From NCBI GenBank assembly GCA_021295815.1, contig JAGWBQ010000013.1:1-64000 (forward strand): a stretch of 64,000 nucleotides of DNA, in the 5' to 3' direction. Numbering within the stretch: the stretch's first letter is position 1; every line of letters starts with the position of its first letter. The position numbers and the translations under genes were made by a program. The stretch is from Gemmatimonadota bacterium. GTDB lineage: Bacteria > Gemmatimonadota > Gemmatimonadetes > Longimicrobiales > Gaopeijiaceae. The notes beneath the pieces were generated by a model, which had not been told where the DNA came from, ran no database searches, and saw only the letters and a program-made list of their open reading frames with translations. Shown here piece after piece: positions 57,202 through 62,253 of the stretch.

Positions 57202-58875
57202 GTGAAGGCGCTGCTCTGGCCCCGGCGAGGGGAGAGAATGCTTCCCGCCCTCTCGGCGGTCGTCCTGGCGCTCTCCTATCCACCGCTGCATATGTACGTC
57301 CCGCCCTTCGTGGGTCTCATACCCCTGGCGGTGTGGATCTGCTCGCTTCCGGGAGACGCCGACGGCAGACGAAGAGCGGTGCGCGGATCCATCCTTTTCG
57401 GGGCCATCTACTTCGGACTCGTCTTCTACTGGATCATGGTCGCCCTGATCTGGTTCACCTGGCTGGCGGTGCCGGCCTTTCTAGGCAGCCTGGCGATGCT
57501 GACCGGGCTCGCCGCGCTCGTGGGATGGGGGTTCCACCGAGCGGTTCACCGGGTCGGTGCGCCGATCTGGATCGCCCTGCCCGTGCTCTGGACCGGAGGC
57601 GAGTGGTTCAGAGCCCACTGGCCCGACACGCTCGCCTTTCCCTGGCTCGGACTCGGCACTTCGCTTACCGGAACGCCCGAGCTGGTGGGGATCGCCGAAT
57701 TGGTGGGCGCGCGCGGCGTGACCCTCTGGCTCGCCGCCGTGAACGGACTGGGAGCGGCGGCGATCCTGGCTCACCGAAAAGGAGATCGCTGGGTCGGTCA
57801 GGCCGGGGCCGCTCTCGCACTCTGCGTCCTCCCGATGGCCTGGGGCGTGTGGCGGGCCGATAGCCTGGAGACGAGGCCCGCCGCCCGGGTGGCCGTGATC
57901 CAGCCCAACATACCCGAGGACATCAAGCTCGACGCCTCGGTCGCCCTCGATTCGACCTTCGCCTCGCTCGACCGACTCATGGCGCAGCTCGCGAGCGAGG
58001 TGGGCGGGGGCGATGCACCTGGAGACGGGGCTCCGGGCAGTACGAGCCCAGGCGGCCTCGATCTGGTGGTTCTCCCCGAGGTCGTTCTGCCCGGGGTATT
58101 TCCCGCGCACGAGACCGCCGAGCTGGCCGTGGAGAGACTTCGCGGTTACGCCGCGGCCGCAGGAGCGCCGATAGTCTTCGGCGGGCTGGGTTTCGAGTAC
58201 GACGAGGACGGAGGTTTCACCCCTTTCAATTCGGCCTTTCTGGTGGCGCAGGACGGACTCCGGGACTACCGCTACGACAAGCGCCACCTCGTTCCCGTGG
58301 TCGAGAGGGTACCGTTCCTCCCCGCCGACGCTCTCGGCTCGCTTGAGTACTTCGGCGCCTACGGCGTCGGGAGAGGATGGCCCATGGTGGAGGTCGGGGA
58401 CGCGGCCTACGCTCCCCTCATTTGCTACGAATCCTCTTATCCGGAGGCGGCGCGCGCGTTCAGACAGCGGGGCGCCGACATCCTCCTGAACCTCACCAAC
58501 GACGCCTGGTACGGCAGGGAGGAGCTCTGGGCCCGGACCACGGCTCTCTGGCAGCACCCCGCCCACATGGTGATGCGCGCCATCGAGAACCGGATGGGCG
58601 TGGCGAGGGCGGCGAACACCGGCATATCGCTCTTCGTCGATCCGGTGGGACGGGTGAGCGACCCGATCGAGCTCTTCACCGACGGATACAGGGTGCATGC
58701 GGTCGAGACCACCGACGTGCTCACCGTCTATGCCCGTTTCGGGGATGTGGCCGGGGGCGCGGCGGCAGCCGTCTCGCTCCTGCTTATGGTGGCTTCCTTC
58801 GCCGGGGACCGGTATAGGTACGACACGTCCGACACGACGGCCCTTGCCGCCCCGAAGGAAACATCGAATGTTTGA
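57202..58875 (+). CDS. lnt: Apolipoprotein N-acyltransferase
   Basis: Lnt, 557 residues, adds the third acyl chain to lipoproteins. The N-terminal half has about seven hydrophobic segments (SAVVLALSYPPLHMYVPPFVGLIPLAVWICSL onward). The C-terminal nitrilase-like domain carries the catalytic Glu, Lys and Cys in LVVLPEVVLPG, RYDKRHLVPVVERVPFLP and PLICYESSYPEAAR. Start is GTG 57202. Its last codons (TCGAATGTTTGA) form the left end of the tandem duplication that follows. Confidence 0.95.
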   Translation: MKALLWPRRGERMLPALSAVVLALSYPPLHMYVPPFVGLIPLAVWICSLPGDADGRRRAVRGSILFGAIYFGLVFYWIMVALIWFTWLAVPAFLGSLAMLTGLAALVGWGFHRAVHRVGAPIWIALPVLWTGGEWFRAHWPDTLAFPWLGLGTSLTGTPELVGIAELVGARGVTLWLAAVNGLGAAAILAHRKGDRWVGQAGAALALCVLPMAWGVWRADSLETRPAARVAVIQPNIPEDIKLDASVALDSTFASLDRLMAQLASEVGGGDAPGDGAPGSTSPGGLDLVVLPEVVLPGVFPAHETAELAVERLRGYAAAAGAPIVFGGLGFEYDEDGGFTPFNSAFLVAQDGLRDYRYDKRHLVPVVERVPFLPADALGSLEYFGAYGVGRGWPMVEVGDAAYAPLICYESSYPEAARAFRQRGADILLNLTNDAWYGREELWARTTALWQHPAHMVMRAIENRMGVARAANTGISLFVDPVGRVSDPIELFTDGYRVHAVETTDVLTVYARFGDVAGGAAAAVSLLLMVASFAGDRYRYDTSDTTALAAPKETSNV

Positions 58876-58929
58876 ACCAAGAGGTTGTCGACCTCACGAG
58901 CAGCAACCGTTCGCATGGAGAGCGTTCAC

Positions 58930-59214
58930 ATGGGTTACCTGAAGCGGAAGTTCAGCGGTGTACCGCCTTACCGTATGGCGAGGTGGGTGGCCGTGTTTCT
59001 CGCGATAACTCTCCTTTACAGGGGTGCGTCCGTCGCAGTGTCCCCGCACGGCGACAGCCGTTCGCTTGAGCTTCTGGAGTGGCTGACTCAGGACGCGGCC
59101 AGAATTCTCGTGGCAATAGCGCTGCTGGTTCTGTGGCGCTGGCCGAGGCAGTGGCCGAGTCATGCATCCAACGCCAGGGTATCGGATCTTTCAGGGTCCG
59201 AGCCGGAGGGCTGA
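58930..59214 (+). CDS. Small two-helix membrane protein, copy 1
   Basis: A 94-residue protein (MGYLKRKFSGVPPYR...) with two hydrophobic segments (WVAVFLAITLLYRGASVAV; ILVAIALLVLWRW), joined by SPHGDSRSLELLEWLTQD. The carboxy end VSDLSGSEPEG is shared with its paralog. GGAGAG 8 bases before ATG 58930 decides the start over ATG 58915. It is not recognised as any known family; the shared SRxLxLLEWLxxD motif suggests a selected loop between the helices. Confidence 0.7.
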   Translation: MGYLKRKFSGVPPYRMARWVAVFLAITLLYRGASVAVSPHGDSRSLELLEWLTQDAARILVAIALLVLWRWPRQWPSHASNARVSDLSGSEPEG

Positions 59215-59322
59215 ACAGATGACTGGTCCGATCAACCCAAGCGTCGAATGTTGGAACCAAGAGGTTGTAGCCTATCGTTTCCGACCTCACGAGCAGCAAC
59301 CGTTCGCATGGAGAGCGTTCAC

Positions 59323-59574
59323 ATGGGTTACCGTGCACTGGCGAAGTGGATGATCGCGTTGACTGCGATAGCTGTCGTCATTGGGGGTGCGGGTATCGTG
59401 GTTTACCCGAACGGGGAGAGCCGTGCGCTCCAGCTCTTGGAGTGGTTGGCCAAGGACGTGACCAAGGGTGTCGTGGTGATAATGTTGCTGGTTTTGATGC
59501 CCCGGGTGCGGCTGGCGTCAAAAGCCGAGGTATCGGATCTTTCAGGGTCCGAGCCGGGAGAGCCGAACAGATGA
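59323..59574 (+). CDS. Small two-helix membrane protein, copy 2
   Basis: An 83-residue paralog of the protein at 58930 (MGYRALAKWMIALTAIAVVI...). Both have MGY at the start, two membrane segments, SRALQLLEWLAKD here versus SRSLELLEWLTQD there, and VSDLSGSEP near the end. The upstream ribosome-binding region is identical. The divergence in the helices but not in the loop and tail argues for constrained function, though recent gene conversion of the ends is also possible. Confidence 0.7.
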   Translation: MGYRALAKWMIALTAIAVVIGGAGIVVYPNGESRALQLLEWLAKDVTKGVVVIMLLVLMPRVRLASKAEVSDLSGSEPGEPNR

Positions 59575-59589
59575 TTAGTGGGAGCACCC

Positions 59590-59975
59590 CAGACGTGGTC
59601 CGCTGGCAGGTATTCGTGGTCTAGACGGACGGCAGTCTCGTGGCCGACTTCGGAGGATCGGGAAGAGGTCCCGGCGAATTCGGGTCAGCTCGAGAGGGCC
59701 GTCCAGGCCTCATGGGGAGAGACGGGCGAAACCGGTGTGACCGTCGAACATCGGCGGTTCGCCCAGAGCGGTGCCGGCTCTCTTCTTTCCGTGGTCGGAC
59801 GGGTCGCGTGTACGACGTAATCACGTCCGACGGCAGGTACGTGGGCACCTTTCCGGCCGGCGCTACCGCGATGCCGGCGGCGTTCGGCCCCGACGGTCTA
59901 GCGGCCTTCGTGGAGATCGACGACCTCGACACGCCTACCGTGATCGTGAAGCGCGTGGCGCCGGAGGTCAGGTGA
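59590..59975 (+). pseudogene. Decayed 6-bladed beta-propeller gene
   Basis: The frame reads RWQVFVV, then TAG (59622-59624), then [20 protein letters not shown], a pattern typical of the first blade of 6-bladed beta-propeller proteins. From about 59810 it resembles a C-terminal blade ([18 protein letters not shown], then [14 protein letters not shown]) ending at 59975. The part between looks out of frame and too short, so the gene seems to have lost most blades and gained a stop and frameshifts. Confidence 0.55.
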
Positions 59976-60100: not shown

Positions 60101-60733
60101 CTAACCCACCTCCGCCGACGGACACTCGTCGGCGAGCGTGCACTCGGAGCAGCGCGGACGTCTCGCCACACAGACCCGCCGGCCGTGCCAGATGAGGAGA
60201 TGCGCCAGCATGGTCCAGGCCCCCCGGGGGAAGAGGGCCATGAGATCGCGCTCGATCTTGACCGGATCGGTCTCCTCGGTGAACCCCAGCAGCCGGGAGA
60301 GCCGTTTGACGTGCGTGTCCACAACCACGCCTTCATCGATCCCGAAGGCGTTCCCGAGGACCACGTTGGCGGTCTTGCGTCCCACCCCGGGCAACCGGAC
60401 CAGTTCGGCCATGGCCCGGGGCACCGAGCCGGAGTGCTTCTCGACGAGACCGCGAGCGAAACCGACGATGTGCTTCGCCTTGTTCCGATAAAATCCGGTA
60501 GTGCGCACCAGGTCCTCCACCTCGGCGGGATCGGCCTCGGCTAGAGCCTCCGCAGTCGGGAAACGGCTGAAGAGCGCGGGGGTGGCCTCGTTGACGCGCA
60601 CGTCCGTGGTCCGAGCGGATAGGATAGTCGCCACCGCCAACTGAAAGGGGTTCTCGAAGTCGAGCTCGCAATGAGCGTCGGGGTACTCGCGTTCCAGAAG
60701 CGAGTAGACGCGCTCGGCGCGCTCCGCGCTCAC
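60101..60733 (-). CDS. nth: Endonuclease III
   Basis: Nth, 210 residues, is a DNA glycosylase/AP lyase for oxidised pyrimidines. The helix-hairpin-helix with catalytic Lys is LPGVGRKTANVVLG (K120) and the catalytic Asp is in VVDTHVKRLSRLLG (D139). The C-terminal 4Fe-4S ligands follow CVARRPRCSECTLADEC (C-x6-C-x2-C-x5-C). GTG 60733 overlaps the symporter stop (GTGA) and has AGGAGG about 10 bases before it; the upstream GTG 60775 is rejected. Confidence 0.94.
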   Translation of the reverse strand: MSAERAERVYSLLEREYPDAHCELDFENPFQLAVATILSARTTDVRVNEATPALFSRFPTAEALAEADPAEVEDLVRTTGFYRNKAKHIVGFARGLVEKHSGSVPRAMAELVRLPGVGRKTANVVLGNAFGIDEGVVVDTHVKRLSRLLGFTEETDPVKIERDLMALFPRGAWTMLAHLLIWHGRRVCVARRPRCSECTLADECPSAEVG

Positions 60734-62253
60734 TCGGACCCGCCCTCCTGCTGCGCCACCCGATTGGCCATCCACCGGTTCGCAAGCAACAGAACCGCGG
60801 CCACGACGGCGAATTGGATGAGCACCGTTCCGATGTTGAAGCTCGAGAAGAGCGTCAAGGTATTGCTCCAGACGATCTCACCGGTCTCGGGATCGCGGGA
60901 AAGGGCGCTCCACAGCCACCAGCAGGTCAGCACCACGGCTTCGACCGCCACCAGACGCATCGCCCAGTCCCACCAGCGTCCGATGCGCAGATCGGAATGC
61001 TCGTGGTTGATGAAGCGCTCGCGCCACTTGGTCACCCCGTAGCGGAGGACGACGAAGGCGAAGAAGAACCCGCTGATCATCAAGGCCACGCCCCAGACCC
61101 AGTCCTGGTTCTGGAAGAAGGGCAGCCCGGTGGTGATGTCGAGCCCCAGCGGGCGGAAGACCGGGCCGAGATCGACCGCGCTCGGTACGCCGAAGAGAAT
61201 GCCCGCCCCCGCCACCAGGGTCAGTGCCCGCTTTCGGGACAGGCCGAGGTCCTGGAGGATGCGGACCGAGAGCTCCACCATCGCCACCAGGCTCGTCCAC
61301 GCGGCGAAAAGGAGCGCGAGGAAGAAGAGCGCCTGGAAGAAGCGACCCGCCGGCATCTGCGCGAAGAGCTGCGGAACCCAGATGAAGGTGAGCCCTTCGT
61401 TGCCCGCGCCGGTGATCTCCGCCGCCGCGCCGGGCATGATCGAAAAGATCGTGCATAGCACCATGATCCCGGCGAGGAGGGACATCGAGTTGTTGCCGAA
61501 ACCGATGACGAACGCGTTGAGCGAGGTGTCCTCGCGCGAGCGCATGTAAATGGCGTAGGTGAGCACAAGCCCCCAGCCGGCCCCGGTATCCCAGGCGTTC
61601 TGCGTTAGCGCCTCGAGCCAGATGCGGTAGTCGCCGAGCTCCGACCAGTCGGGAGTGAACAGGAACGCCAATCCCTCGCTGGCGCCGGGAAGAGTGACCG
61701 CGCGTATCGCAAGCACGACGACGAGAAGGACGAGCGACGGGATCAGGAACTTGGCAGCCGTCTCGATCCCCTTCACCCCCTTCGCCACGACGAAGACGGC
61801 CATCGATATGGCGGCCAGATGGGTGAGCAGCGCTTCCGGTGTCGAGTGGAAGCCCTCCCAGAACGCCTCGGGCGTCTCGCCCGGGACCTGACCCGCGACC
61901 GTGCCGATGAAGAAGCGCAGCGTCCATCCCATCACCACCGAATAGTAGAAGAGAATGGCGGTGGCGACGAAGGCCACCCAGGCTCCCATCCACGCGAACT
62001 TGGGGCCGATGGTGGCCACGATCGCGCCGATCGCGCCCTTGCGGGTGCTCTTGCCCATCCCGAATTCGAGGATCAGCAGCGGAATCGACCACGCGAGCAG
62101 GAAGACCACCCAGGCCACCAGGAAGCTGCCTCCGCCGTTGCTCGCGGCGATTCGTGGGAAGCGCCATATGTTGCCGGTACCCACGGCCATGCCCAGCATG
62201 GCGAGCAGCATGCCCCAGCGGGAGGTGAAGACTGCCGATCGAGTTGCGCTCAT
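60730..62253 (-). CDS. Sodium-dependent transporter, SNF (neurotransmitter:sodium symporter) family
   Basis: A 507-residue protein with about twelve hydrophobic segments. TM1 has the family's unwound, sodium-binding motif AVGTGNIWRFPRIAASNGGGSFL. Other marks are FGMGKSTRKGAIGA and TQNAWDTGAGWGLVLTYAIYM. Bacterial members move amino acids with Na+; the substrate cannot be told. ATG 62253 follows AGGA; the frame is open to 62421 but overlaps glyS. It is coupled to nth. Confidence 0.92.
   Translation of the reverse strand: MSATRSAVFTSRWGMLLAMLGMAVGTGNIWRFPRIAASNGGGSFLVAWVVFLLAWSIPLLILEFGMGKSTRKGAIGAIVATIGPKFAWMGAWVAFVATAILFYYSVVMGWTLRFFIGTVAGQVPGETPEAFWEGFHSTPEALLTHLAAISMAVFVVAKGVKGIETAAKFLIPSLVLLVVVLAIRAVTLPGASEGLAFLFTPDWSELGDYRIWLEALTQNAWDTGAGWGLVLTYAIYMRSREDTSLNAFVIGFGNNSMSLLAGIMVLCTIFSIMPGAAAEITGAGNEGLTFIWVPQLFAQMPAGRFFQALFFLALLFAAWTSLVAMVELSVRILQDLGLSRKRALTLVAGAGILFGVPSAVDLGPVFRPLGLDITTGLPFFQNQDWVWGVALMISGFFFAFVVLRYGVTKWRERFINHEHSDLRIGRWWDWAMRLVAVEAVVLTCWWLWSALSRDPETGEIVWSNTLTLFSSFNIGTVLIQFAVVAAVLLLANRWMANRVAQQEGGSE

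Follow-up and report, generated by a model that had tools for sequence, protein, structure and literature searches.

A tandem pair of genes for probable two-helix membrane proteins, without detected relatives, beside a beta-propeller remnant in a Gemmatimonadota genome

In the long direct repeat (ldr) loci of Escherichia coli, which encode type I toxins, tandem units share a conserved leader and encode small hydrophobic proteins. The two genes described here resemble them in all three respects, but they differ from the ldr loci in their larger two-helix products and in their setting at a beta-propeller locus. The ldr toxins are among the subjects of a review (PMC8309996). Tandem paralogues under concerted evolution, in which gene conversion acts between adjacent copies, likewise show a patchwork of identical and diverged stretches, whereas conversion in the present case would be deduced from two copies in one genome. 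The 6-bladed beta-propeller genes (Pfam PF17170, DUF5128) are related to the locus through a remnant of such a gene and through a promoter-like element common to several of them; the two small genes differ in encoding no propeller and in lacking homologues at the other propeller loci. The likeness to PF24709 (DUF7670) consists of a weak profile match by gene 1 only. On balance, we consider it probable that a lineage-specific, fast-evolving small two-helix membrane gene was duplicated in tandem within a relic propeller operon and that conversion and/or constraint kept the ends of the copies alike.

Structure of the tandem repeat

In the analysed stretch of 64,000 nucleotides (hereafter the window), repeat finding and alignment revealed a unit of about 380 bp that occurs twice in tandem (Table 1). 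The offset between the direct repeats changes along the unit, from 380 nt at its left edge to 393 nt in the leader and 351-352 nt in the tail. As a previous reading of the sequence alone (hereafter the sequence-only reading) had described, the two units share identical ends of 51 bases (51/51) and 29 bases (29/29) around a diverged core, in which 128 of 196 positions (65%) are identical and 42 gap columns are required. The same reading had let the left-hand identity consist of the 51 bases through the first codons; these bases are indeed identical, but the identity extends farther to the left (24/25 between 58864-58888 and 59244-59268), with a 13-nt indel alone parting this stretch from the 51-mer, and 41 of the 51 bases belong to the 5' leader and 10 to the coding region when the likely starts are assumed. 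The G+C content of the region behind lnt is 58-61%, compared with about 67% in the surroundings.

The contrast in identity between the ends and the core exceeds chance. The probability of a run of 51/51 is about 1e-7 to 4e-10, given the divergence of the core, of the third positions or of the 3' flank. When the gap columns were removed, the longest identical runs were 66 and 31, and in 20,000 column shuffles the longest identical run averaged 18 with a maximum of 65. The repeated unit starts just 3' of the promoter-like element, which unit 2 does not have, so that transcription of unit 2 probably enters from unit 1.

Table 1. Features of the locus in the window, and sites of the promoter-leader module elsewhere in the genome
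Feature	Position	Strand	Basis or remark
lnt, apolipoprotein N-acyltransferase	57202..58875	+	Pfam PF00795, PF20154; last codons overlap the promoter-like element
Promoter-like element	58823..58863	+	nhmmer E 6.5e-4, model from C9 and C10 sites only (window excluded)
Repeat unit 1	58864..59243	+	Repeat finding, alignment
Identical 51-nt leader block, copy 1	58889..58939	+	51/51 identity
Gene 1, 94 aa, two predicted helices	58930..59214	+	ORF, hydropathy, frame score, structure model
Identical 29-nt 3' block, copy 1	59178..59206	+	29/29 identity; encodes VSDLSGSEP, can fold as hairpin
Repeat unit 2	59244..59596	+	Repeat finding, alignment
Identical 51-nt leader block, copy 2	59282..59332	+	51/51 identity
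Gene 2, 83 aa, two predicted helices	59323..59574	+	ORF, hydropathy, frame score
Identical 29-nt 3' block, copy 2	59529..59557	+	29/29 identity
6-bladed beta-propeller gene remnant	59571..59975	+	In-frame stop 59622-59624; hmmsearch E 4.1e-22 for 59625-59975
nth, endonuclease III, right neighbour	60101..60775	-	Pfam PF00730
Promoter-leader module, L085	2397-2549, 5644-5805, 7466-7615		
Promoter-leader module, L072	2341-2487	-	
Promoter-leader module, C13 (L137)	111099-111216		

The identity of the ends might reflect pure constraint without any exchange, in which case the leader would be retained as a regulatory or translation-start region and the 3' block as a hairpin and peptide signal, while the helices drift. 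The 3' block, which folds at -14.4 kcal/mol (z -3.6) and encodes an identical nine-residue tail, and the leader, in which the Shine-Dalgarno sequence and the start sit, are consistent with this explanation. In this DNA, a stem as strong as that of the 3' block is met about every 2 kb. However, the leader tolerates the 13-nt indel and shows neither an unusual fold (z about -0.2) nor an Rfam match, and a 51/51 match in largely non-coding DNA goes far beyond what one would expect of a simple translation start. We therefore regard pure constraint as a possible but rather unlikely explanation. Because the leader shows no special fold, gene conversion is favoured for its identity, and since the 3' block combines a hairpin with a peptide motif, constraint may suffice there and is plausible as the cause of the identity of the tail. 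The ongoing exchange at the ends that had been suggested in the sequence-only reading is compatible with the data, but conversion and constraint are inseparable because only two sequences are at hand. Note that in unit 1 only, the 3' block can alternatively form a long imperfect stem with the bases that follow it as far as the border of the unit (window 59171-59244, z -2.85).

Two small genes and the search for their relatives

The likely start codons of the two genes (ATG 58930 and ATG 59323) each lie 7 nt 3' of the sequence GGAGAG. The products are 52% identical, and the SRxLxLLEWLxxD loop (SRSLELLEWLTQD / SRALQLLEWLAKD) and the nine-residue VSDLSGSEP tail recognized in the sequence-only reading are present in both, the tail being identical. 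Hydropathy and a low-confidence structure model (pLDDT 60) predict two helices, the second of which begins in the SRxLxLLEWLxxD stretch, and the charges suggest that both protein ends are inside. The view of the pair as two homologous and undescribed proteins, probably of the membrane, that are conserved at the ends and diverged in the core is supported.

Both frames are probably coding. In each gene the coding frame is the best-scoring of the six, the indels in the coding region are multiples of three, in contrast to those of 13 nt in the leader and 1 nt in the stop region, and the replacements between the two proteins are conservative. Three estimators put the dN/dS of the core at 0.5-0.76, and the differences at the three codon positions number 28, 17 and 17, respectively. 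Because of this ratio and because the first positions differ most, the two frames appear to be weakly constrained rather than hypervariable.

A non-coding or dead duplication, in which the frames would be accidental or both genes would be decaying together with the propeller remnant, fits the lack of homologues, the decay of the propeller and the excess of differences at the first codon positions. The multiples of three among the coding indels, the frame scores and the conserved loop argue against it, and random mutation with the same number of changes kept an open frame and equally conservative changes in 1.6-1.8% of the trials; we consider this explanation improbable. The sequence-only reading had held that a lack of homologues, together with a lack of ribosome-profiling or RNA signal, would mark the repeat as non-coding: homologues were indeed not found, but the in-frame indels, the best of six frames and the conservative replacements favour coding.

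The search for the leader and the protein motifs elsewhere in the genome and in relatives, which had been recommended in that reading, found none beyond the pair. The own genome contains the two copies only, and the 121 genomes of the family and the 394 genomes of the class (which overlap the phylum sample) gave only weak matches, while no match at E <= 0.001 was obtained in the phylum sample of 395 genomes (which overlaps the class sample). The weak matches that were inspected in relatives, family and class sit in, or antisense to, unrelated genes; a 21-base leader match in two relatives, located inside an unrelated gene, and a 20-base match at C11 were both taken as chance. A profile of the two-row alignment matched nothing in the GTDB genome contigs or the viral contigs, a 35-mer of the leader was absent from the former and the 3' block from the latter. 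The pair had no match in the plasmid collection, the PDB sequences, Rfam, NCBIfam, PHROGs or PADLOC, and matches in the phage collection were obtained only at E >= 2. No family library matched either protein above threshold: for PF24709, gene 1 reached 15.5 bits (E 0.023) against a curated cut-off of 29 bits and gene 2 had no match, and control genomes yield similarly weak matches, so that this candidate was rejected. By these comparisons, the pair is an orphan among the collections searched, in which its genus is represented by this species alone and the closest genomes may be missing; it is new as a sequence family and ordinary in kind.

The beta-propeller setting behind lnt

In the approximately 25 relatives with a similar lnt that we compared, the gene order is usually the same oxidoreductase gene (gfo), lnt, rpmE and prfA, the last two having been identified by eye from the translations. 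This lnt-rpmE-prfA order is broken at the present locus, where lnt is followed by the promoter-like element, the two small genes, the propeller remnant and nth; rpmE of this genome is on another contig. The relic propeller setting behind lnt was absent from the sequence-only reading.

The propeller beside the pair is present in decayed rather than intact form. The start of the remnant (ATG 59571) overlaps the stop of gene 2 as ATGA, and the remnant, detected with a model built from the genome's own propellers, is homologous to pieces at C9, C16, C17 and other places, parts of it being 92-97% identical to the C9 remnant. The 6-bladed beta-propeller family is represented by about 50 matches in the 2.47 Mb genome (e.g. 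L085, L087 and L077), and these are often clustered, with fragments and remnants. A different small ORF with several helices overlaps a propeller remnant at C9 in the same manner (ATGA), and at C10 small exported ORFs overlap propeller genes. The C9 ORF was rejected as a homologue of the pair. Small exported or multi-helix ORFs overlapping the start of a propeller gene or remnant were noted at L085 7651-8220 and 3835-4188 and at L072 1564-1887 (minus strand); these ORFs at L085 and L072 have no Pfam family. In our literature search, nothing was found on propellers in such a setting.

The promoter-like element is common to the window and about six other places of the genome, as found in a search of about 398 kb of its DNA (overlaps included). 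The remaining members are found at propeller loci as well, namely at C9, at three sites of C10 and at the end of C13; C25 has a partial match. The best members read TTGACA-N16-TATCTT (by eye). The element of the window is degenerate and was missed by a consensus promoter scan; it matches that of C9 at 30 of 37 positions, compared with 24-26 for shuffled queries. A module of promoter and leader, up to about 145 bases long, recurs before propeller genes (Table 1).

We suggest that a 6-bladed beta-propeller operon headed by a gene for a small two-helix membrane protein came to lie behind lnt and that this gene was duplicated in tandem, probably long ago. One transcript from the first promoter would read both genes; the small protein would form an N-in/C-in hairpin in the inner membrane and would originally have served the exported propeller protein, made alongside it, as a membrane accessory. 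The cores may then have drifted under weak constraint over a long time, while short-tract gene conversion from one adjacent copy to the other and/or constraint would have kept the ends alike; with the propeller gone, the pair may now be a relic or be reused on its own. Against the operon reading, of about 60 propeller genes and fragments only those in the window and at C9 are coupled to a multi-helix ORF; the two proteins concerned are not homologous, and the notion that every propeller is preceded by a small membrane gene was rejected. It is likewise very doubtful that a subset of propeller operons in this lineage forms a new two-part module, with a very fast-evolving small membrane protein placed between the shared promoter and a stop-start-coupled propeller, its core renewed and its ends kept. 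If the duplication of a propeller-operon gene is the right reading, the pair would be an ordinary but instructive orphan membrane gene, duplicated in a propeller locus within a neighbourhood that relatives keep intact. As a wider lead, the shared promoter module with its occasional small exported or membrane ORF may serve as a handle on a propeller family of about 50 members without known function.

Diversifying cassettes and type I toxins

Tandem type I-like small membrane toxins, whose identical leaders would be the target of one antisense RNA, would account for small hydrophobic products, tandem repeats and identical leaders like those of ldr, but products of 83-94 aa with two helices exceed the typical type I toxin size and the setting is a propeller locus; we consider this explanation most improbable. 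Neither an Rfam match nor a sigma-70-like promoter on either strand (consensus scan only) was found, results with which an antisense RNA would still be compatible.

The sequence-only reading had also proposed a cassette that diversifies its core, in which the fixed ends would serve as recombination anchors and the core would be exchanged or mutated by a dedicated mechanism. The sharp contrast between ends and core and the nearly neutral dN/dS of the core point in this direction. However, there are two copies only, no other core was found under the same ends in the genome or in the 121 family genomes, no archive of silent cores was found, the loop and the tail are conserved and the frames are weakly constrained; this proposal was not borne out, and we give it hardly any weight. 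No integron attC site (RYYYAAC ... GTTRRRY) was seen by eye in the leader or at the unit borders, and no reverse transcriptase was present among the neighbouring genes at 51-64 kb in a Pfam scan. A variable region of a diversity-generating retroelement is not supported, since the differences are not concentrated at the adenines of one copy: at the 68 core differences, copy 1 has C at 26 positions and T, G and A at 14 each.
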